In this document: positions 781-12,306 of the stretch, one piece after another
Layout of the letters: each line of letters starts with the position of its first letter
Position numbering within the stretch: position 1 is the first letter of the stretch
Assembly (NCBI GenBank): GCA_003563255.1
Contig: PWSL01000091.1
Span: 1-12,612 of the forward strand
DNA length: 12,612 nucleotides
Source: Desulfonatronospira sp.
GTDB taxonomy: Bacteria > Desulfobacterota > Desulfovibrionia > Desulfovibrionales > Desulfonatronovibrionaceae
Direction: 5' to 3'
The notes under the pieces: model-generated
Seen by the model: the letters and a program-made list of their open reading frames with translations, nothing else
Database searches by the model: none
Told to the model about the DNA's origin: nothing
Translations under genes and position numbers: made by a program

Positions 781-1278
781 CTAAGTTGCGGTCAGGCCCT
801 TTATTCTGGCCTCCATTTCAGTGCTCAGTTCTTCCGCCCTGGCCCGGCTGATAACCGGTAGATCTTCAGCCAGCTTCTCCACCTCCGCCTCCGGAATGCC
901 CGTGAGTTTGTGAATCAGGAAAGCATCCATCTCGCCATCCTCCAGGAGGTGACCGCAGGCGCCCAGGGCCCCCACAAACTGTCCTCCGGCGAAAACAGGC
1001 ACGCAGATCTTCATCAGACCTGCATCACACTCCTCCACCACAGGCTGTCCTGTCTGTCTGGCCAGGCTGGCCAGATTCTGATGGGCCACCGAGCATACGG
1101 ACTGCAGGGCCGAGGGTATCTCTTTGATTCTGGGGCACAGACGGTTGGCCCACTGTTTAAGCCCGGTGAATGTGAACCCCTGGGCGTCGTAGGCATTGAC
1201 ATCCAGCCCGGTACGTTCATTGAGTTCGTTTTCCAGCTCAGCCCATTCTTCTTTGGAAAGCAGGTCAAGCATGGTCAT
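781..1278 (-). CDS. Stand-alone PocR-type ligand-sensing domain protein, 165 aa
   Basis: The protein consists almost entirely of a PocR-type sensory domain. The hallmark stretch is visible: a Cys-His pair (C62, H66), then EECDAGLMKICVPVFAGGQF (82-101), then VGALGACGHLL. In other proteins this domain sits in front of AraC-type DNA-binding, histidine kinase or GGDEF modules and senses small molecules. Here no output domain is fused and the C-terminus is only a charged helix. Cysteines at 48, 62, 84, 92 and 108 plus H66 could bind a metal or report redox state, which is inference. GGAGG lies 8 bases before ATG 1278. It begins 29 bases after the HdrD-like gene, so it is probably co-transcribed with the electron-transfer genes. 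The downstream gap 559-780 holds only a weak imperfect hairpin near 705-745. Confidence 0.85.
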   Translation of the reverse strand: MTMLDLLSKEEWAELENELNERTGLDVNAYDAQGFTFTGLKQWANRLCPRIKEIPSALQSVCSVAHQNLASLARQTGQPVVEECDAGLMKICVPVFAGGQFVGALGACGHLLEDGEMDAFLIHKLTGIPEAEVEKLAEDLPVISRARAEELSTEMEARIKGLTAT

Positions 1279-1307: not shown

Positions 1308-2525
1308 TTAATCCATTACCAGGGCCTCGGCCACCACTTCCCACAGGTACTTGACTTCAATGGAGGCCGGGCCCTGGGCATCAAGCATGGCCCGGATATG
1401 GCCGTGGCAGCTGTGGCAGGGGACCACCACCAGTTCGGCCCGGCTGTTTTTTATCTGCTCAATTTTTCTACGGCTGTAATATTTGCGCTGCTCTTCATAG
1501 GGGGTGAGCATGAGCCCGCCGCCCCCGCCGCAGCAGTACTGCCGGGCCCGGTTGGGCTGCATGTCCGTCCAGTGCTCCAGGCATTGATTCAGTATCCAGC
1601 GCGGTTCATGGAAATAGCCGTGCCCGAACAGGGCCTCTGACTTGCGGCCGTAGTTGCAGGGATCGTGGTACACGGCCTTTTTTTTGATCCGGTCCCTGTC
1701 CAGCCTGATCCTCTGGGTGGATATGTATTCAACCAGGAGATCGAACACGGTCACCGCCTCATAGCGCTGCCGGAACTCCGGATGCCAGCGGGCCAGCCCG
1801 TACCGGGTGGCCAGGTAGGCGTGTCCTCATTCGGGGTACATGAGCCCCCGGGACCGGAGTCTTTCCATGTTGCCCACGATGGTATCCACTCCGGCCTTGA
1901 GCACCTGGTCCTGGCCGGAAAAAAATCCCCAGTTGACCCCTTCCCAGCGGCTGCCGGGCAGGGTCCAGCTTTCGCCGGCGGCGTGCAGGATCTTCCACCA
2001 GTGTTTGAGATCCTCGTTCTGGGTGTTGACCAGCTTGTTGTGCAGGGTGAAAAGAAGCCGGGCATCTTCCTTGTCCACGGGCAGGACAAAGTCCTCGAAG
2101 CCTGGCTCCTCGGTGAGCTCCTCGGCCACGTCTTCTACAATGAACCCGAAGTCTTCGTCGGGCAGACCCAGGTTGTTTCCGGTCTCCATGAACATTTCAA
2201 TCCCTTTGCCGATGGCCTGGGGAACAGTCTTTTCCCCGCCTAGATCCCTGGCCTCGCGGATCATGTCCGTGATGCGCACATCCATGGGGCATCCCTCCTG
2301 GCAGCGTCCGCACATGGTGCACAGCCAGGCCAGGCTGGATTCGCCCAGTTCTTCAAATCTTCCCAGCTGACCCAGGCGCACTATGCGCCGGGGATCAAAG
2401 CCTTCTATTCCGGTCATGGGGCAGGCGGAAGCGCAAGTGCCGCAACCCAGACAGATCTGCGCCGGATTGCCTCCGCCGCCGGGTCCGGACAGGTCGGTAT
2501 GGGATAAAACTTCAGTTGAGTTCAT
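1308..2525 (-). CDS. HdrD/DsrK-like CCG-domain iron-sulfur protein, predicted selenoprotein (in-frame UGA), 405 aa
   Basis: Two [4Fe-4S] ferredoxin motifs sit near the N-terminus (C25, C28, C31, C35 and C69, C72, C75, C79), as in HdrC/DsrK-type proteins. The C-terminal half carries a full CCG domain: DPCNYGRK (C290), CCGGGGG (C331, C332) and PCHSCHGH (C370, C373). A TGA at 1829-1827 falls at residue 233 in MYPE-U-GHAYLATRYGLARW; the frame stays open and protein-like on both sides, and a hairpin follows, so I read it as selenocysteine. Without recoding, the product would stop at 232 residues and lose the CCG domain. The start at 2525 has GGAGG 9 bases upstream; 2531 is an alternative. It overlaps the preceding double-HdrA gene by 14 bases. 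Likely role: an electron-accepting or disulfide-reducing partner of the Hdr complex. A pseudogene or sequencing error is the alternative. Confidence 0.83.
1791..1829 (-). promoter_or_regulatory. Candidate bacterial SECIS element with the UGA codon
   Basis: The UGA is at 1829-1827. Downstream on the minus strand, GGCCA (1812-1808) pairs with TGGCC (1795-1791). After a single bulged C (1796), CCC (1807-1805) pairs with GGG (1799-1797), leaving the loop GGTAC (1804-1800), or GTA if the closing G-C pair forms. The loop starts 22 bases after the UGA and opens with G residues. Both features, and a one-base bulge in the stem, agree with known bacterial SECIS elements, which are read by SelB inside the coding region. 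The fold was found by eye and no energy was computed. Confidence 0.72.
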
Positions 2526-4983
2526 GGACATTTTCCTCCAATTGTTCAGACCACGCACTGGCCTTATTGGGACAGACCGCCACACAGGCCCCGCAGCCCC
2601 TGCAGGCCAGGGGATCCACAGCCATGGCCCCTGTTTCTTCATGGGCATACCTGGCCTTGAACGGGCATGCCTCCAGGCACAGGCCGCACAGGGAGCAAAG
2701 GGCCGGCTTGACCCGGACAAAGGTCTGAAGCCGGCTGTCCAGCCCCTGTTTCAGCAGGCCCAGGGCGCTCATGGCCGCAGCCCGGCCCTCCAGCACGGCC
2801 TCCTTAAAAGGCACCGGGTTTCTGGCCAGACCGCAGATAAATATCCCTGCCCGCCCGGATTCCACTGGCCTGTACTTGGCATCTGCTTCGCAAAGAAAGC
2901 CCTCTGCCGAACTGTGCACGTTGAAGATCCGGGCCATTTCGCTTCCTGCTGCCGGGACCACCCCGGGAGCAAGCACCAGCTGCTCTGCTTCATATTCGCT
3001 CTCTTCACTGAGATAGGGATCAGAGCCCTTGACCCTGATTTTGCCGTCTTTGGCCTCCAACGACGGGGGGGCATCAGGGCTGTAGGGGATAAAGCGCACG
3101 CCCTCGCTTCTGGCCCGGGTGTAGAGCTCTTCGTCGTCGCCCTGGACCATGATGTCCCGGTAAAATACGGTCACCTCTGCTTCAGGCCGCAGGCTCAGGG
3201 TCTGCAGGCAGCTCTTGAGGGCCAGACTGCAGCAGACCCGGCTGCAGTAGTTGGCTGGTTCCTGCCTGGTATTATGGCACAGGATAAAGATCACCGATTC
3301 CGGCGCTTCCCCGCTATTCCCGGCCGCAAAAATCCGCCGGGAATATTCGAAAATGTCTGCTGTCCTGTCTTCCTGCCGGGCAACAGGAGCAGCCCTGCCT
3401 CCGGTGGCCAGTACTGCTGCTCCGTGAAGAATTTCTTTTTCGTCGCCGCTGGAGTCCCGGATCCGGCTTTTGAATCCGCCGGCCGGGCCGGTGCAGGAGA
3501 TCACTGCAGCCGACGGATATACTTGCACCAGCTTATGCTCCATGGCCCTGGCCGCCAGATCCTGCACCTCTTTTCTTTGTTCAGGGGAAATATTGCTCAG
3601 GCCATGCCCACCCAGATGGTCCTTCTGTTCCACCAGTACAACCGGGATGTTTCCGGCGGCCAGGGTCAGGGCGGCCGAGAGGCCGGCCGGCCCGGCGCCC
3701 ACCACCAGCACCCGGCTGTGGACCTGGTCCTGGTCTTTGGCCTCCTGGTCGGGGAGGCTTTCCTGCCGGTCTTCCCCCAGGGCCGTGGCGGCTGTGGCCG
3801 AGGCAGCAATGATGGAGCGGGCGATATCCAGGACCCGTCTGGAGCCGGGGCTGGTGAATACGCCTTCGCGGCCGGCATATTCAGGCGGTTTCCAGGCGGG
3901 GTCCCGTCCCACCGAAAGCACCACCAGGTCAAAGTCCCGGTCCTGCTGGTTGCCCGGAGAAGGTGCGTGGGGGATGCGCAGGATCTGCTCTTCAGGGACC
4001 TGTTCAATGCTGTGGGGCCTGCAGCGGATGAGTTCCACCCCTTTTTCCCGGGCCCGGTCCAGGTACTTCTGCCAGTCCCGGCCGGAAGTGCGCATATCCA
4101 TGTAGAAGATGGAGCACTGGATGTCCTTTTCCCTGGCCAGACTGGCCTGCTTGAGAGAGATCATGCAGCAGATCCCGGAGCAATGATCCGCTTCCAGCTT
4201 GAGACTGCGTGATCCTGCGCACTGGACCCAGGCCGCCCGGCGCACCGGCCTGCCGTCGGATGGACGCATAATATCCGTGCCTGCACTGCTCAAGAGAGCT
4301 TCGAAATCAAGGGTGGTGATCACGTCGGCGTGGGCCGCGCTCTGGTAAAGATTGTACACTTCAGGCAGACAGTATTCTACTCCCGAGGCCAGGACTGCAA
4401 AGTCAAGGTTATCCAGGACCTTTTCCTCCCGGGCGGCATCAAGATCTATGGCCCCTTCCCGGCAGGCATCCCGGCAACGGCCGCACAGAGTACAGGCCTC
4501 CAGGCTGATGGCCAGATGATGGGGCGGTCTGTGGGGGGCGGCCCGGGAAATGGCCTTTACCGGGATCTGCCCGGTGGAAAAGAGGTCAGGCATGTGCACG
4601 GGACAGACTTCCACGCACTGCATGCAGGCGTTGCATTTATCACTGTCCACCATAAGTGTCTGCCTGATCAGGGTTGCGGACATATTGCCCGGAGAGCCCT
4701 GAATGTCCTGGACCTCGAAACCCGGGAAAAATTCAATGCCCGGGTGGCCGAATCCTCTGCGCATGCAGGCCTGCCAGGTCCGGCCGGAAGGATCAGGAGG
4801 AAGCACCCGGCACAGGCCGCAATGGTTGCTGGGAAACTGCCGGTCCAGACCCAGGAGCAGCCCTGCAGGAACAGCCTGTTTTTCAGCCAGGAAAACGCTG
4901 CAGCCTGCCCGGGCCAGATCCATGGCCGCCTTCAGGCCGCTTACCCCGCCGCCCATGACCAATGCCCTGGCCGCTTCCTTCAT
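2512..4983 (-). CDS. Tandem double HdrA-like flavin/iron-sulfur protein, 823 aa
   Basis: Two HdrA-like halves are joined in one chain. The first has a Rossmann FAD motif (VMGGGVSGLKAA, 9-20), the HdrA cysteine patch NHCGLC with a further Cys at 73, two ferredoxin clusters (C117, C120, C123, C127; C164, C167, C170, C174) and an HdrA C-terminal block (VQCAGSR, CSGICC, 253-273). The second has another FAD motif (VLVVGAGPAGLSAA, 425-438), a matching block (LCHNTRQ, CSRVCC, 568-585), and two C-terminal ferredoxin clusters (C763, C766, C769, C773; C794, C797, C800, C804). HdrA is normally about 650 residues with one FAD. The N-terminal domain seen in canonical HdrA is missing. The architecture recalls QmoB, but QmoB's fused MvhD domain is a separate gene here. 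The start overlaps the preceding stop (ATGA), with GGAGG 7 bases upstream. Likely a cytoplasmic electron-distributing, possibly bifurcating subunit. Confidence 0.9.
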   Translation of the reverse strand: MKEAARALVMGGGVSGLKAAMDLARAGCSVFLAEKQAVPAGLLLGLDRQFPSNHCGLCRVLPPDPSGRTWQACMRRGFGHPGIEFFPGFEVQDIQGSPGNMSATLIRQTLMVDSDKCNACMQCVEVCPVHMPDLFSTGQIPVKAISRAAPHRPPHHLAISLEACTLCGRCRDACREGAIDLDAAREEKVLDNLDFAVLASGVEYCLPEVYNLYQSAAHADVITTLDFEALLSSAGTDIMRPSDGRPVRRAAWVQCAGSRSLKLEADHCSGICCMISLKQASLAREKDIQCSIFYMDMRTSGRDWQKYLDRAREKGVELIRCRPHSIEQVPEEQILRIPHAPSPGNQQDRDFDLVVLSVGRDPAWKPPEYAGREGVFTSPGSRRVLDIARSIIAASATAATALGEDRQESLPDQEAKDQDQVHSRVLVVGAGPAGLSAALTLAAGNIPVVLVEQKDHLGGHGLSNISPEQRKEVQDLAARAMEHKLVQVYPSAAVISCTGPAGGFKSRIRDSSGDEKEILHGAAVLATGGRAAPVARQEDRTADIFEYSRRIFAAGNSGEAPESVIFILCHNTRQEPANYCSRVCCSLALKSCLQTLSLRPEAEVTVFYRDIMVQGDDEELYTRARSEGVRFIPYSPDAPPSLEAKDGKIRVKGSDPYLSEESEYEAEQLVLAPGVVPAAGSEMARIFNVHSSAEGFLCEADAKYRPVESGRAGIFICGLARNPVPFKEAVLEGRAAAMSALGLLKQGLDSRLQTFVRVKPALCSLCGLCLEACPFKARYAHEETGAMAVDPLACRGCGACVAVCPNKASAWSEQLEENVHELN
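2535..2539 (-). promoter_or_regulatory. Ribosome binding site of the HdrD-like selenoprotein gene
   Basis: GGAGG on the minus strand. It lies 9 bases before ATG 2525 but only 3 bases before ATG 2531, which favours the shorter start. It is inside the 3' end of the double-HdrA gene. Confidence 0.6.
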
Positions 4984-6077
4984 TGGTCACCCTCCGTGGA
5001 AAAATTTAAATGCGGAATAGGTTCCTCGGGGCTGCGGCCGGCCTTGTAGTCAAGCTCCTTCTGAGTGGCGGCGGCTACGGTCCTGAAAATGTCCGCCACA
5101 GGGATATGGATGGGACAGACACTGGAACACTGCCCGCAGCCTACGCAGGCGTGGGCCATGTGGGCCAGCCTGGTCAGATGAAACATGGTCATCCCGGCCG
5201 GGAGCCTGATCCCGCCGGTCCGGCCGGCCCTGGTATGCAGCATTTCCAGGTTCTGCTCAAAGGCTTCCCTGCTGCATACGCATTCGCGGCAGAAACACAC
5301 CGGACAGGCCCGCTGGCAGTTGAAGCAGCCCAGACAATGGGCGATCATGGACTGCAGTCCAGAAGAACTGCTGATGGTTTCCCGGCTCCTGGACATCACC
5401 TCTTCCCGGGCGGATTCTCTTTGGGACCTGAGACTGTCTACGGCCCGGCCGCGTTCTCCGGGCTCCTGTCCGGGCTTAAGTTCCAGGGCTCTAGCCGCAT
5501 CAGCCCCGGGTCCTTCATCCCAGGCAATCCCTGCCTGCTGATCCAGATCCAGGCCCAGCACGCAGATATTCAGGTGGGCGTTTTCCGGGAGAAAATCAAT
5601 ACAGCTTCTGCAGGTAATGGCTATCCGGGACTGCAGATCCTCATCGCGGTAAAATCTTTGATCCAGGTCCTGGTTTTGATCCTGAAGATCGATGTAGTCC
5701 TGGTTTTCCAGCCTTCCCGGGCATTCCAGGCCAATGACAAGCAGGTTGTCCAGCTGGGCCTGGTTCAGCTTGTGCAGCTCCACCAGGGCCCGGATCTCGC
5801 AGGGACGCAGTACGGCGGCGATTTTTATTTCCTGCGGTCCGCGGCTGATTTTTGCAGCCTGAGTTGCGGCGCTGACCCCGGCCACCGGGGCCAGGGGAGA
5901 GGTCTGATCCAGATCCGCAGGGTTGTTCAGGAGGCGGGTCATGGGCAGAACAGACGGGGGGACCGCGGCGGGCACAATTACCGCCTGGACCATGTTCTGC
6001 TCCAGGAGCCTGGCCAGAAGCATGCTCACTGCTTTTCCGGCATCGCCCCGGGTTTCTATCAGGGAAAAGTTGTGCAT
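4980..6077 (-). CDS. FrhB/FdhB-like flavin and iron-sulfur subunit, 365 aa
   Basis: The N-terminal part contains LRPCEIRALVELHKL (90-104), the hallmark of the coenzyme F420 hydrogenase/dehydrogenase beta-subunit (FrhB/FdhB) fold, followed by conserved-looking IGLECPG (115-121) and CRSC (156-159). The C-terminal part has ferredoxin-type clusters: a cysteine-dense block with C248, C251, C254, C258 and further cysteines at 261-268, and CVGCGQCSSVCP (311-322). Family members carry FAD and shuttle electrons between F420, NAD(P)H, formate dehydrogenase or ferredoxin and Hdr-type partners. The bacterial electron partner cannot be told from the sequence. Residues 181-235 form a charged, low-complexity linker. 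AAGGA lies 7 bases before the ATG. MvhD ends 13 bases upstream and the double HdrA overlaps the stop by 4 bases. Confidence 0.87.
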   Translation of the reverse strand: MHNFSLIETRGDAGKAVSMLLARLLEQNMVQAVIVPAAVPPSVLPMTRLLNNPADLDQTSPLAPVAGVSAATQAAKISRGPQEIKIAAVLRPCEIRALVELHKLNQAQLDNLLVIGLECPGRLENQDYIDLQDQNQDLDQRFYRDEDLQSRIAITCRSCIDFLPENAHLNICVLGLDLDQQAGIAWDEGPGADAARALELKPGQEPGERGRAVDSLRSQRESAREEVMSRSRETISSSSGLQSMIAHCLGCFNCQRACPVCFCRECVCSREAFEQNLEMLHTRAGRTGGIRLPAGMTMFHLTRLAHMAHACVGCGQCSSVCPIHIPVADIFRTVAAATQKELDYKAGRSPEEPIPHLNFSTEGDQ

Positions 6078-6090
6078 GGCTGTATCCTTG

Positions 6091-6558
6091 TTATACCAGA
6101 TTCATGCCCTTGTAATCCGACGGCCCCAGCTGTTCAATAACCCGGGCAAAGGAGGTCAGATCTTCCTGAAGCTTTTTGCCTTCGCTGGCTCCGATCCATT
6201 CCAGCCTGAGTCTTTGCGGGGGGATGCCCACGGATTCAAGAACGGGCCTGATGCCCTTGATACGTACCCTGGCCTTGAGATTGCCGGTGAGGTAATGACA
6301 GTCGCCTGGATGGCAGCCGCCGATGAACACCCCGTCGGCCCCGTCCAGAAAACAGCTCAGGATATAACGCATGTCGATCATTCCGGTGCACATGAACCGG
6401 ATGAGCCTGACCTGGGCCGGATAGTGCAACCGGGTGACCCCGGCCAGGTCCGCCGCTGTATAGGTGCACCAGTTGCAGACCAGGGCCAGTACGTCCAGTT
6501 CCTTATGTCTGCTGTTGTCCGTACCGGCCTCTTCAGGCCGGCTGATCCCGGTGTTCAT
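6091..6558 (-). CDS. mvhD: MvhD-family iron-sulfur adaptor subunit, 155 aa
   Basis: This has the full MvhD (FlpD) signature: ALVCNWCTYTAADLAG (C28, C31), the RFMCTGM motif (C57) and GGCHPGDCHY (C82, C87), with the family's usual length of about 140-150 residues plus a slightly longer, polar N-terminus. MvhD is a small [2Fe-2S] protein that passes electrons from a donor module, such as a hydrogenase or formate dehydrogenase, to HdrA. The start at 6558 is supported by GGGAGGAA immediately upstream and lies 26 bases inside the 3' end of the hdrA gene. Separate MvhD beside HdrA and an FrhB-like subunit implies an external electron donor docks here. Confidence 0.95.
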   Translation of the reverse strand: MNTGISRPEEAGTDNSRHKELDVLALVCNWCTYTAADLAGVTRLHYPAQVRLIRFMCTGMIDMRYILSCFLDGADGVFIGGCHPGDCHYLTGNLKARVRIKGIRPVLESVGIPPQRLRLEWIGASEGKKLQEDLTSFARVIEQLGPSDYKGMNLV

Positions 6559-9500
6559 GTTCTTCCTCCCTGGATTGGTCTGTATACAAAAGCCCGGCTA
6601 TTTCAGAAAAGATTTGTTCAGGAGCAAACTGCTCCACTGCCGCCGCCCCGCTGGGACAGGTGGCTGAGCAGGAGCCGCAGCCCCGGCACAGGGCTTCGTT
6701 GACCCGGGCGACTCTGGCCTGGTGATCAAAGGTGACTGCATTATAGGGGCAGACCCGGGTGCACATTGCGCAGCCGCTGCAGATGTCGGCATCGATCACT
6801 GAGCGTTCGGCCAGGGTGCTGACCCAGCCCCTGGAAAGCAGGGCCACTGCCTCTCCTGCCGCAGCAGAAGCCTGGGCTACGGTGTCCGGGATGTCCTTGG
6901 GGCCCTGGCTGCAGCCGGCCACAAAGACCCCGGAGGCCTGGGTGGATACCGGGGCCAGCTTGGGGTGCTGCTCGGTGAGCCAGCCGTGGCTGTCTGCGGA
7001 AACCCCTGCCAGCCGGGCGGTTTGCACTGCACCTGTGGCCGGGACCATGGCCGGACTGAGAATGACCATATCCGCCGGAATCCTTAAAACTTTGCCGCTC
7101 AGGGTGTTTTCAGCCACCACTGTAAGCCGGCCGGTGTCCTCGGGATTGTCGGCCACATCAGTGACCTCGGCCACCCGGCCGCGCACCAGGCGGATGCCTT
7201 CAGCCTGGATGCGGCTGTAGAATTCCTCGTAGTTTTTGCCGGGAGTACGCATGTCTATATAAAATGAATACACCTCGGCCCCGGTCTTCTCCCGGATAAG
7301 GTGGGCGAATTTCAGGGAATACATGCAGCAGACCCGGGAGCAGTAGTCCTTGTGGTTTTTGTCCCTGGATCCCACACAGTGGATGATGGCCACCCTTTCG
7401 GGCCTGCGCCCGTCTTTGGTCTGTATACTGCCCTGGGTGGGGCCAGTGGCGTTGTTCAGACGCTCGAACTGCAGGCTGGTATAGACCTCCGGGTACCGGC
7501 CGAAACCGTACTGGGACAGGGATTCTGGGTTGTACAGCTCAAATCCGGTGGCCAGGATTATGCTTCCCACCTTAAGCTCCACGTCTTCGGGCTGCATACT
7601 GTGGTCTATGGCCCCGCGCTCACATGCCTGCACGCACTCCATACATTCGGAGCAGATCCCGCAGTTGAGGCAGCTTGAGGCCTCCTGCACCGCAGCATCC
7701 TCGTCCAGAGTTCCTTCCACTTCGGCAAATCCATGCAGGGATCTGTCCGGACTCAGCCTTGCAGGCTCTGCCCTGTGCCTGGGTTCCAGGCCACCCGGCA
7801 CCGGCCTCCAGTCGGTGCCTGAACTGTCCTGGTCCAAAGAGTCCTTATGCCCCAGGTCAAGCTCATGGCCGTCCAGAAAGCGTTCAATGGCCTCGACTGC
7901 ACGCCTGGCGGCGCCTATGGCCTCCACAACAGTGGCCGGTCCTGTGACCGCATCACCTGCAGCAAAGACCCAGGGAATCGTGGTCTGCTGAGTCCTGGGG
8001 TCCACCTGGAGCATGCCGCGCCTGGTCCATTGGAGTTCCGGGACTGTTTCGGCCCAGGGAGCATGGATCTTCTGGCCCACGGCCACGATGACCGTGTCCG
8101 CCTCCAGGACCTGTTCGCTGCCGGATACCGGCTCAGGTCTGCGTCTTCCCCCTGCATCGGGTTCCCCCAGCCGGGTGCTCAGGCATTCAAGGCCGGTGAG
8201 ACAGCCCTGTCTGAGCACCAGACGGTTTGGCTGGGTCAGGTAACAGAATTTTATCCCTTCCTCTCTGGCCTCGCTGATTTCCTGGGCATAAGCCGGCATT
8301 TCTTCTTCCGAACGGCGGTATAATATGCTCACTTCCCTGCAGCCCAGGCGCAGGGCGGTCCTGGCGGCATCCAGGGCCACGTTGCCCCCGCCGATGACCA
8401 GAGTTCTGGGGCCGACCTGCACATCCTGCTGCAGGTTGACCTTTTTCAGAAAGTCCACTGCGTTAATCACCCCTGGACAGTCTTCGTCTTCCAGTCCCAG
8501 TCCGGTCCCCGCCTGGGCCCCGATGGCCATAAAGGCCGCCTGGAAGCCCTGCTCCTGCAAACCTTCAAGGGTGAAGTCATGGCCGAAACTCATTTTTGTG
8601 CGCACCTCCACCCCGAGTTCCAGGATCCGGTCGATTTCTTTGTCCAGGATCCCGGGAGGCAGGCGAAAGTCCGGAATACCGCTGCGGAGCATGCCTCCCA
8701 GATAATCTGAAGCCTCGAATATGGTCACGGCAAAGCCCTTGCGGCGCAAAAAGCAGGCCGCTGCCAGCCCGGCCGGACCTGAACCGATGACGGCCACTTT
8801 TTCCTGCCGGTCTGTCCCGGGCACAAAGCCGGGAGCGGAAGCATATTCGGCTGCAAACCTCTTAAGGGCCTTGATGGCTACAGCAGAGTCCGCCTGGCTG
8901 CGGCGGCAGGCGGATTCGCAAGGATGCGGACAGACCCGGCCCAGTACCGCCGGCAGGGGCAGCCTGTCATGGATGATTTTCAGGGCCTCCTGGTATTTGC
9001 CCTGACTGATGAGCTGCACATAACCCTGGACATTGGCCCCGGCCGGGCAGGCCACAGTGCAGGGAGCCCGGTCCTTCTTGTCTATACAGTAGGTCCCGGG
9101 CACTGACTGGGGAAAGGAACGATAGATGGCCGTCCTGCTACTCAGGCCCTCGTTCCATTCGCTGGGAACCAGGACAGGGCAGACTTTGGCGCATTCGCCG
9201 CAGCCCGTGCATTCAGAATGCAGGACATAGCGGGGCTTTTTGCGCACCGTCACCGTGTAGTTGCCCACGAAACCGGTTATGTCTTTGACCTCGCTCCAGG
9301 TCATGAGTTCAATATTGGGATGCTGCCCCACCTCGACCATTTTGGGGGTCCCAATGCACGCAGCGCAGTCCAGGGTGGGAAAGGTCTTGTCCAGCTTGGC
9401 CATCTGACCTCCAATGGAGGGATCCTTTTCCACCAGGTAAACAGGATAGCCGGAATCAGCAGCGGTCAGGGCCGCCTGCATGCCGGCAATACCTCCCCCT

Positions 9501-9949
9501 ATGACCAGAACTGATTTGTTGACCTCTATTCTGCGGGTAAAAAGGCTGCGGTGGTGCCGGACCCTGGCTGCAGCAGCCGATACCAGTCTGATGGCCTTTT
9601 GGGTGGCCTGGCCGGAGTCCAGACTGACCCAGGCCGAGCCCTCCCGGATATTGGTCATCTGCAGCAGGTAGGGATTCAGTCCGGCCCGGGCACAGGCCCT
9701 GGCAAAGGTCGGCAGGTGCATCCGCGGAGAGCAGGAGGCCACCACCACCCGGTTCAGACCGTGGTTGACTATGTCTGATATGATCATGTCCTGGCCCTGG
9801 TCCGAGCACATGAACTGGTAGTGCCTTGCCTGGAACACATTTTCCAGTCCTGAGGCAAAACGGGCCACTTCCTCCACGTTTACCTTTCCGGCGATGTTCT
9901 GTCCGCAATGACAGATATAGATGCCTATACGCGGCTGTTTATGACTCAT
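6533..9949 (-). CDS. hdrA: HdrA with an inserted GltD/NfnB-like NAD(P)H module, 1138 aa
   Basis: The chain starts as HdrA: IGIYICHCGQNIAG (8-21), a FAD Rossmann motif (VLVIGGGIAGMQAA, 147-160), LDKTFPTLDCAACIGTPK (186-203) and a cluster CTGCGECAKVCP (247-258). Canonical HdrA is then interrupted from about residue 284 to 697 by a GltD-like module: N-terminal cysteines (C297, C301, C340, C344, C348), a FAD motif (VAVIGSGPAGLAAA, 385-398), a nucleotide motif (LVIGGGNVALDAARTAL, 517-533) with YRRSEEEMPA and FAAGDAVTGP. HdrA then resumes with cluster CLNCGICSECMECVQAC (760-776), CVGSRDKNHKDYCSRVCC, and two terminal ferredoxin clusters (1057-1067, 1088-1098). The arginine pair after the second Rossmann motif hints at NADPH, but NADH is possible. 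The start at 9949 gives the ATGA overlap with hdrB; a longer reading from 10096 would lie inside hdrB. Confidence 0.93.
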   Translation of the reverse strand: MSHKQPRIGIYICHCGQNIAGKVNVEEVARFASGLENVFQARHYQFMCSDQGQDMIISDIVNHGLNRVVVASCSPRMHLPTFARACARAGLNPYLLQMTNIREGSAWVSLDSGQATQKAIRLVSAAAARVRHHRSLFTRRIEVNKSVLVIGGGIAGMQAALTAADSGYPVYLVEKDPSIGGQMAKLDKTFPTLDCAACIGTPKMVEVGQHPNIELMTWSEVKDITGFVGNYTVTVRKKPRYVLHSECTGCGECAKVCPVLVPSEWNEGLSSRTAIYRSFPQSVPGTYCIDKKDRAPCTVACPAGANVQGYVQLISQGKYQEALKIIHDRLPLPAVLGRVCPHPCESACRRSQADSAVAIKALKRFAAEYASAPGFVPGTDRQEKVAVIGSGPAGLAAACFLRRKGFAVTIFEASDYLGGMLRSGIPDFRLPPGILDKEIDRILELGVEVRTKMSFGHDFTLEGLQEQGFQAAFMAIGAQAGTGLGLEDEDCPGVINAVDFLKKVNLQQDVQVGPRTLVIGGGNVALDAARTALRLGCREVSILYRRSEEEMPAYAQEISEAREEGIKFCYLTQPNRLVLRQGCLTGLECLSTRLGEPDAGGRRRPEPVSGSEQVLEADTVIVAVGQKIHAPWAETVPELQWTRRGMLQVDPRTQQTTIPWVFAAGDAVTGPATVVEAIGAARRAVEAIERFLDGHELDLGHKDSLDQDSSGTDWRPVPGGLEPRHRAEPARLSPDRSLHGFAEVEGTLDEDAAVQEASSCLNCGICSECMECVQACERGAIDHSMQPEDVELKVGSIILATGFELYNPESLSQYGFGRYPEVYTSLQFERLNNATGPTQGSIQTKDGRRPERVAIIHCVGSRDKNHKDYCSRVCCMYSLKFAHLIREKTGAEVYSFYIDMRTPGKNYEEFYSRIQAEGIRLVRGRVAEVTDVADNPEDTGRLTVVAENTLSGKVLRIPADMVILSPAMVPATGAVQTARLAGVSADSHGWLTEQHPKLAPVSTQASGVFVAGCSQGPKDIPDTVAQASAAAGEAVALLSRGWVSTLAERSVIDADICSGCAMCTRVCPYNAVTFDHQARVARVNEALCRGCGSCSATCPSGAAAVEQFAPEQIFSEIAGLLYTDQSREEEHEHRDQPA

Positions 9950-10791
9950 ATCTTTTCCGGTGCAATAAGCAGTTTGTCCAGTCCCAGTTCTTTCCTGGGC
10001 ACCCCCAGGGCCAGGCCGGCCACCTGAGTGAAAAAGAGCACCGGCAGCCTGGGCAGGCCCAGGCTCAACTGGGCGCTTTCCAGATTGAGCTGGCACAGGG
10101 GACAGATGACCGCGGCCAGGTGGGCTCCTTTATCCTGCATGGCGAGGATGATGCGCTGCACCAGGGCCTCGGTGCTCTGCCGGAATCCCAGGGCATGGGC
10201 TGCGCCGCAGCAGGCGGTCTTCAGGGAGTAGTTCACCGGAGTAAAGCCCAGTCCTTCAATGAATCTGTCCAGCATTTGAGGGTGTTCCGGGTCATCTACG
10301 TCGGTCCATGGCCTGGAAAAAAGACAGCCGTAGTAGGCGGCCACCCTGAGCCCGGACATGTCCGGGCTAAGAGACGATTTATGCATCTGCCCCCGGCTGG
10401 AGAGCACCTGCAGGAGGTGTCTCACAGGCAGCTGAGGGGCGGAGTCAGGTCCGCCCTCCTGCAGGATTTTTCTCCAGGTGCCGGCATACAGGTCCTGGTC
10501 CTGCAGCAAGAGTTTGCGGGTCTTGCGCAGGGTGTTGAAGCACCCGTTGCAGCCTGTGACGAGTTCTTTTGCCCCTGCCTGGGACGCCCTGGCCATGACC
10601 AGTGCCGGGTGGTAAACTCCATAGTCTCCCTGCAGGCTGAAACCGGCGGTGCTGCCGCAACAGTTCCAGTCAGGCAATTCTTCCAGGCGGATATCCAGGC
10701 GGCTGCACACTGCATCCACGGACTCTTTGTAGCCGGCAGCGGTTTCATAAGAACAGCCGGGATAGAAGTAAAAACCGTCGGACATGGTCAT
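9946..10791 (-). CDS. hdrB: Heterodisulfide reductase subunit B, 281 aa
   Basis: Both CCG domains of HdrB are complete. Domain 1 has PGCSYE (C13), NCCG (C44, C45) and CNGC (C81, C84); domain 2 has YGCLF (C156), CCGAAHALG (C194, C195) and CPLC (C230, C233). In archaeal HdrB these bind the two noncubane [4Fe-4S] clusters that reduce the CoM-S-S-CoB disulfide. In bacteria the substrate is unknown and may be a protein or small-molecule disulfide. All ligands are kept, so the protein should be catalytically competent. Length is close to the usual 280-300 residues. GGAGAAGG lies just before ATG 10791, and the gene overlaps both hdrC and hdrA by four bases (ATGA), implying translational coupling. 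Confidence 0.95.
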   Translation of the reverse strand: MTMSDGFYFYPGCSYETAAGYKESVDAVCSRLDIRLEELPDWNCCGSTAGFSLQGDYGVYHPALVMARASQAGAKELVTGCNGCFNTLRKTRKLLLQDQDLYAGTWRKILQEGGPDSAPQLPVRHLLQVLSSRGQMHKSSLSPDMSGLRVAAYYGCLFSRPWTDVDDPEHPQMLDRFIEGLGFTPVNYSLKTACCGAAHALGFRQSTEALVQRIILAMQDKGAHLAAVICPLCQLNLESAQLSLGLPRLPVLFFTQVAGLALGVPRKELGLDKLLIAPEKI

Positions 10792-11291
10792 ATCCTTCTC
10801 CGTCTGAGAAGCCTTAAGGCCAGAGAGAGTCTTCCAGGCATATCCGATGGGTGCAGCAACCCGTATCCGGCAGCCAGACGGGACTCGCTCACCCGGCCTC
10901 GTTTTTCCACCTGTCTGACAAAACCCCGGTACACGTCGGGCATCTTGAATTCCCTGCGGGCCAGATTGTGTTCCAGGGACATGACCCTCAAGGCATACAT
11001 GATATCAGACACAGGTACTCCCTGGGGGCATCGGGTAAGGCAGGCGTTGCAGGAAACGCACATCCAGATGCTCCTGGAACCAAGGACTTCGGCCAGAAAA
11101 CCGTCCCGGAGCAGGGCCAGGATGCGTCTGGGTCCCAGATCCATTTCATGGGCCAGAGGGCAAGAACCGCTGCATGTGCCGCATTGGATGCAGTGCTGCA
11201 CTTCTTTTCCGGCTCTGCCTTGAAAAAAAGAGCGGCTCAAGGTTTCCTGATGTTCCGGGTCCAGTGTTTTATGGCTGTGTAAGAATCGCAT
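10788..11291 (-). CDS. hdrC: Heterodisulfide reductase subunit C, 167 aa
   Basis: Two [4Fe-4S] binding motifs are separated as in HdrC: CIQCGTCSGSCP (C34, C37, C40, C44) and CVSCNACLTRCP (C78, C81, C84, C88). HdrC relays electrons from HdrA to HdrB. The region after the second motif (ALRVMSLEHNLARREFKMPDVYRGFVRQVEKRGRV is split here into its two recognisable parts, the LxxNLARRE helix and the FxxxVxxxGRV helix) is the usual HdrC helical tail, ending in an arginine run, LRRRRI. AAGGCAG lies shortly before ATG 11291. It is the first gene of the leftward operon, with an AT-rich upstream region that contains a TATAAT box. Confidence 0.94.
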   Translation of the reverse strand: MRFLHSHKTLDPEHQETLSRSFFQGRAGKEVQHCIQCGTCSGSCPLAHEMDLGPRRILALLRDGFLAEVLGSRSIWMCVSCNACLTRCPQGVPVSDIMYALRVMSLEHNLARREFKMPDVYRGFVRQVEKRGRVSESRLAAGYGLLHPSDMPGRLSLALRLLRRRRI

Positions 11292-12043: not shown

Positions 12044-12306
12044 CTTTTGCCGATCTCAAACCGAAAAACGGCCGGACTATCCGGCGGCAAAAGAGCCAGT
12101 CCCCTTCCAGCTTATCGCCCAGGCCACCGGGGACAGGCACTTTTGCCGATCTCAAACCGAAAAACGGCCGGACTATCCGGCGGCAAAAGAGCCAGTCCCC
12201 TTCCAGCTTATCGCCCAGGGCACCGGGGACAGGCACTTTTGCCGACCTCAAACCGAAAAAAGGCCGGACTATAAGGCGGCAAAAGAGCCAGTCCCCTTCC
12301 AGCTTA
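12044..12306. repeat. Tandem array of 96-bp palindromic units (2.7 copies)
   Basis: Units begin at 12044, 12140 and 12236; the third stops after 71 bases. Units 1 and 2 differ at one base. Unit 3 has four substitutions, including CC to AA in the central stem. Each unit contains CTTTTGCCG and CGGCAAAAG as inverted arms (12044-12052 with 12085-12093 in unit 1) and an inner CCGG-rich stem. The arms are framed by GGGGACAGGCAC (12129-12140, 12225-12236) and GAGCCAGTCCCC (12093-12104, 12189-12200, 12285-12296). These are the same borders as in the element at 68-219, but the arms are unrelated. The 96-base period keeps reading frames open on both strands, which explains spurious ORFs here. The layout resembles REP clusters (BIMEs) linked to RAYT transposases. 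Confidence 0.9.

Follow-up and report, generated by a model that had tools for sequence, protein, structure and literature searches.

In a 12,612-nucleotide stretch of DNA from Desulfonatronospira sp. (assembly GCA_003563255.1, contig PWSL01000091.1; hereafter the window), we find a gene for an HdrD-like iron-sulfur protein in which a single in-frame TGA codon is very probably read as selenocysteine (Sec). Our confidence that the TGA is read as Sec and that the protein is HdrD-like is about 0.95. The gene lies on the minus strand (1308..2525), and with the TGA taken as Sec its conceptual translation runs for 405 residues from the ATG at 2525 to the TAA ending at 1308, with a GGAGG ribosome-binding site nine bases 5′ of the ATG (2535..2539, minus strand). 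The TGA (1827..1829, minus strand) is the only one in the frame and specifies residue 233, in the context P-E-U-G-H-A. A first-pass annotation of this DNA had proposed one protein whose halves, an N-terminal two-cluster ferredoxin part and a C-terminal CCG domain, lie in the same frame around a single TGA at 1829-1827. The 405-residue translation bears this out, and both domains score above their Pfam cut-offs. As that annotation also foresaw, the standard code splits the gene, and a table-11 list of open reading frames (ORFs) gives 2720..1827 and 1754..1308, the second from a GTG at 1754. Computation shows the frame, Sec machinery, hairpin, conservation, gene order and fold, and we infer that selenium would be incorporated at this codon in the cell.

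Conservation at residue 233

We compared residue 233 among the best 120 of 6114 scored protein relatives. Cys, the residue that had been expected in place of the TGA, is present in 84 of those listed, Ser in 15 and another residue in seven (two Leu, and one each of Gly, Ala, Val, Tyr and Glu), so that a search of homologs for Cys at this position did return Cys (or Ser). The other 14 entries are 230-239 residues long and end exactly before codon 233, which is how a TGA appears in a protein database, and 14 such endings among 120 listed relatives far exceed coincidence. P0002, one of these short entries, shares 99% identity with the window protein, and three of the 14 carry the name 'heterodisulfide reductase subunit C'.

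We also scanned one genome per species and examined the best 80 of 449 confirmed loci, a choice that biases the sample to close copies. Codon 233 is TGA in 78 of these loci, TGC in one and TGT in one. Once five further loci are added, TGA is found in 84 of 86 matches, and Gly-His (GH) directly follows codon 233 in all 86. The copies examined were close TGA copies, a Cys group with the context PDCGG and a TGA paralog with the context NTEUGHE, and at least 113 of the 297 genomes of the window's order have a relative at E ≤ 1e-60. Nonsynonymous and synonymous divergence (pN/pS) between the window and L042 was 0.113/0.601 before the TGA and 0.145/0.516 after it, and between L043 and L044 it was 0.086/0.605 before and 0.086/0.696 after. 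Constraint is similar on either side of the TGA. A selenoprotein gene is expected to show an in-frame TGA, conserved coding to either side of it and homologues with Cys in its place, and all three were found here.

The TGA could instead be an ordinary stop, with the gene either decaying or giving two polypeptides, an HdrC-like half and a CCG half translated from GTG 1754. Both the split in the table-11 list and the listed entries that end at the TGA would be expected from such a gene; however, an identical TGA recurs across many assemblies, constraint continues beyond it, GH between the TGA and GTG 1754 is invariant, and the hairpin described below is preserved with synonymous covariation. Together this makes an ordinary stop highly improbable. 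A sequencing or assembly error that replaced TGC or TGT would agree with the Cys of most listed relatives, but the TGA is common to separate assemblies and the hairpin accompanies TGA, not Cys codons, and we give this explanation next to no weight.

Other TGA copies vary in their context. In L110, a Cys lies three residues before Sec to form CPEU, the arrangement that a CxxC with Sec in place of its second Cys would give. The NTEUGHE paralog occurs in 15 loci (L045, as a second copy, L047-L056 and L058-L061; L057 has TGT there), and in L047, L049, L052 and L060 it directly adjoins the Cys (PDCGG) paralog, with HdrABC-type genes nearby. Thirty TGA copies (L174-L203) align to P0008, a relative bearing a helix-turn-helix domain (Pfam PF12728), from its residue 1, suggesting that a DNA-binding-type domain is joined to a Sec-containing iron-sulfur protein, which may act as a redox-sensing regulator.

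A hairpin behind the TGA

Bacterial selenoprotein genes carry a hairpin just behind the TGA with a G in its loop, the selenocysteine insertion sequence (SECIS). The window has a SECIS-like hairpin at this place (GGCCACCCGGTACGGGCTGGCC / GGCCACCCGGUACGGGCUGGCC; 1791..1812, minus strand), which starts 14 bases from the TGA and has GUA in the apical loop; an Rfam scan gave no SECIS match. Relatives use two main codon sets, GCA/GCG-ACC-CGG..GGG-TTG and GCG-ACC-AGG..GGT-CTN, and both pair. A replacement of Gly by Ser in L127 and L132 coincides with a change in pairing.

As a first control, we aligned 83 of the 84 TGA references, leaving out the paralog L045:5150-5203, and made 300 shuffles that retained every amino acid and each column's codons, though not relatedness. 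The mean energy of the 83 distinct TGA copies was -9.46 kcal/mol as opposed to -6.02 (standard deviation 0.23, minimum -6.67) in the shuffles, and stems of at least five pairs were present in 75 of the 83 copies compared with 38.9 (standard deviation 3.4) after shuffling. The second control was the set of non-TGA copies, scored by a rule that demands a central stem of at least five pairs and a G in the loop. This rule was passed by 118 of 135 TGA copies and by 3 of 30 Cys/Ser copies (29 of them distinct, L143 and L218 being the same stretch), with mean energies of -9.58 and -3.46, respectively. The three non-TGA copies that passed are L143/L218, one TGT gene with an AGG-type hairpin, and L209. 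These comparisons indicate that the hairpin is maintained through co-ordinated synonymous codons, and the SECIS check proposed in the first-pass annotation turned out in favour of the Sec reading, with a hairpin showing synonymous-site covariation behind the TGA.

Genes for Sec insertion

The genome (3.52 Mb, 99% complete) was searched together with 14 control genomes. A tRNA-Sec with anticodon TCA scored 80.6 bits (cut-off 47), SelA 606.5, SelB 338.3 and SelD 391.9, the SelD gene itself having one in-frame TGA (L062). All four genes that the Sec reading calls for, selA, selB, selC and selD, are thus found in the genome, SelB in part: its frame reaches the end of the locus, where the contig probably ends. 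Cut-offs were exceeded in 5/14 control genomes for tRNA-Sec, 1/14 for SelA, 2/14 for SelB and 2/14 for SelD. SelA, SelB and SelD are stronger proof than tRNA-Sec because fewer controls exceed their cut-offs.

Domains and fold of the protein

The N-terminal HdrC-like domain, with two [4Fe-4S] clusters predicted, spans residues 23-83 (2277..2459, minus strand; Pfam Fer4_8), and the C-terminal CCG domain spans residues 285-378 (1392..1673, minus strand), where counts of conserved Cys mark C290, C331, C332, C370 and C373. HdrB has two complete CCG motifs. In the window protein, Pfam finds one CCG stretch, and Cys is absent between positions 79 and 233 and between 233 and 290 of the translation. 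Residues 155-405 take an HdrB-like fold, as in the methanogen HdrB/HdrC structures (5odc, 7bkb, 8rvu), whose HdrC-like part the N-terminus also resembles; unlike in methanogen HdrB, one CCG motif is degenerate. The description of the protein as HdrD-like stands for the architecture, an HdrC-like part joined to an HdrB-like one, with the reservations that cysteines are retained in the second CCG half alone and that the curated NCBIfam cut-offs for HmcF, TmcB, DsrK and GlpC are not reached. The best NCBIfam matches, HmcF, TmcB and DsrK, scored 174, 133 and 126 bits against cut-offs of 750, 735 and 400, and GlpC (TIGR03379) scored 38.4 bits, below its curated cut-off of 279.9.

The fold is also like that of EtfD of Mycobacterium smegmatis (9ojn) over 365 residues, a protein with two CCG halves and a dicluster ferredoxin. 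EtfD differs in its membrane part, in the four cysteines that serve cluster D1 and in carrying His583 in the turn (PMC13083937), whereas the first CCG half of the window protein retains only Sec233. Judged by the fold, Sec233 probably occupies the CxxC turn in this first, degenerate CCG half.

The surrounding hdr cluster

The neighbouring genes, all on the minus strand, were assigned from the ORF list with NCBIfam and Pfam. Upstream of the Sec gene, and overlapping it by 14 bases, is an HdrA-like flavoprotein of 823 residues (2512..4983), followed by an FrhB/FdhB-like iron-sulfur subunit of 365 residues (4980..6077; its FrhB/FdhB matches are slightly below the Pfam cut-offs), FlpD/MvhD (6091..6558), an HdrA of the HdrL type, which carries a GltD-like NAD(P)H domain as an insert (6533..9949, with the start placed at codon 50 of the listed ORF, an internal ATG), an HdrB with two CCG stretches (9946..10791) and an HdrC-like protein (10788..11291). 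Of the close relatives that share the motif MYPE, ten have 7.5 kb or more of upstream sequence available, and nine of these ten have matches in the order HdrA(-GltD), FlpD, FrhB-like, second HdrA and Sec gene. The best HdrA match covers the C-terminal part only in several loci, and in L042 and L043 it continues through the GltD insert.

Directly downstream of the Sec gene is a protein with a PocR sensory domain (781..1278), a domain matched anywhere in 19 of 80 related loci, which vary in length. An ORF of 87 residues (331-594) has no Pfam or NCBIfam match; it is 69% identical over residues 9-83 to an ORF in L042, there also downstream of PocR. At 12044-12306 of the window is a 96-base repeat (2.7 copies, 97%), the core of which, CTTTTGCCG...CGGCAAAAG, also stands beside tRNA-Sec in locus L001, and the repeat may be scattered through the genome.

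Discussion

Several observations weigh against the reading of the gene as a Sec-dependent member of an Hdr cluster. Ser or another residue occupies position 233 in 22 of the 120 listed relatives, and the Ser codons TCG, TCA and TCC were seen in 3 of 30 non-TGA genes, so neither a thiol nor a selenol is indispensable in all members. The tRNA-Sec alone is weak proof because five of the 14 controls exceed its cut-off. As the shuffles ignore relatedness, shared ancestry may explain part of the hairpin excess. The hairpin register is not the same in the two codon types, and 17 of 135 TGA copies are without a central stem of five pairs under our simple rule. L152, a TGC gene, has a hairpin of -14.8 at the same place with no loop G, and was missed by the rule; without the demand for a loop G, the non-TGA count rises to 4 of 30 and that of the TGA copies stays at 118 of 135. 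L143/L218 and L152 apparently represent recent Sec-to-Cys changes with the hairpin retained. As for the protein, profile alignments reached only the second CCG half, the placement of Sec233 rests on the fold range, the strand-turn-helix position and the motif, and Sec233 would match the first CxxC Cys by helix start but the second by motif. Finally, the close relative L065 has no Hdr cluster upstream.

In our reading, SelB with Sec-tRNA binds the hairpin, so that the TGA is very probably decoded as Sec and one 405-residue protein is made. This fusion of HdrC and HdrB would be the thiol/disulfide head of an Hdr complex, with HdrC, HdrB, HdrA-GltD (HdrL), FlpD, the FrhB/FdhB-like subunit and the second HdrA as its other subunits. 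Electrons supplied either by NAD(P)H at the GltD domain or by the FrhB-like subunit would reach the HdrA flavins and travel by way of the N-terminal pair of [4Fe-4S] clusters to a noncubane cluster housed in the second CCG half. Sec233, in a first CCG half without its other cysteines, would face this cluster and form or cleave a bond to the substrate, a disulfide or sulfane; candidates are the DsrC trisulfide or another disulfide carrier. We infer the cluster type, the electron path and the chemical role of Sec, and we lean towards a catalytic Sec233. A further role for Sec233, as the exchangeable selenolate that ligates or bridges the catalytic iron in the noncubane [4Fe-4S] cluster of the second CCG half, seems doubtful. 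If true, it would provide a natural selenium-ligated Hdr-type cluster with one CCG half reduced to a single Sec, and the Ser variants would mark members whose disulfide chemistry was lost.

Alternatively, Sec may be inserted but non-catalytic, serving structure or redox tuning near the cluster of a protein that is an electron relay like EtfD, FadF or DgcB and not a disulfide reductase. EtfD, the best fold match, is called an electron wire in PMC13083937, according to which FadF and DgcB lack the first-cluster cysteines. Ser at 233 in 15 of the listed relatives would suit a relay, as would the source name 'dimethylglycine catabolism B' that some relatives bear. On the other hand, Sec usually serves redox chemistry, and it is present in 147 of the 206 tree-set sequences, a set assembled from sequences resembling Sec proteins, which leans to Sec for that reason. 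We regard a non-catalytic Sec in an electron relay as less likely than not, if well worth keeping in mind.

The first-pass annotation considered the family plausible and its role in such a cluster perhaps undescribed, a view that is borne out only by half: published lists do include the family. A similar locus type is also in print. A 2026 review table lists an 'Fe-S oxidoreductase-like protein, PTHR43551, UGH', predicted with high confidence (PMC13188914), and the window protein has this U-G-H motif (PEUGHA). Selenoproteins of a marine deltaproteobacterium include an Fe-S oxidoreductase (PMC8318568), and electron shuttling has been proposed for an HdrL-like HdrA (PMC12142623). The GlpC/COG0247/PTHR43551 selenoprotein shares UGH, Sec, a deltaproteobacterial host and proximity to hdrA and frhD (PMC1794560, PMC13188914, PMC9312934). 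Its published operons, glpC-hdrA-frhD-frhG-frhA, include hydrogenase subunits in these same sources, whereas the window has no frhG or frhA and instead has HdrC, HdrB, HdrA-GltD, the FrhB-like subunit and a second HdrA. The 2009 genome paper on Desulfobacterium autotrophicum HRM2 reports hdrL/hdrA/hdrD loci together with an HdrD4 that contains Sec (PMC2702500). Its locus VIII (hdrL/hdrA4/hdrD2, fdhB, hdrB, hdrC) resembles the window in gene content, but the HdrD named there as carrying Sec is hdrD4 and not hdrD2 (PMC2702500). A metagenome-assembled locus titled Desulforapulum autotrophicum (L078) has the window's cluster with TGA at the same codon.

The selenoprotein family and the locus type are therefore already in print, and the window protein is a further member. 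To this we add the conserved cluster order, the HdrB-like fold and the probable place of Sec at the CxxC turn; hairpin covariation, Ser variants and the placement of Sec in a degenerate CCG half were not met in searches of open-licence papers, where most hits were read as list entries. As far as computation can settle it, a gene type filed as a truncated protein of 230-239 residues is a full selenoprotein, which bears on the counting of Hdr systems in sulfate reducers. The likely selenium site is the turn that carries the bridging cysteine of HdrB's catalytic cluster (HdrB role: PMC13083937).
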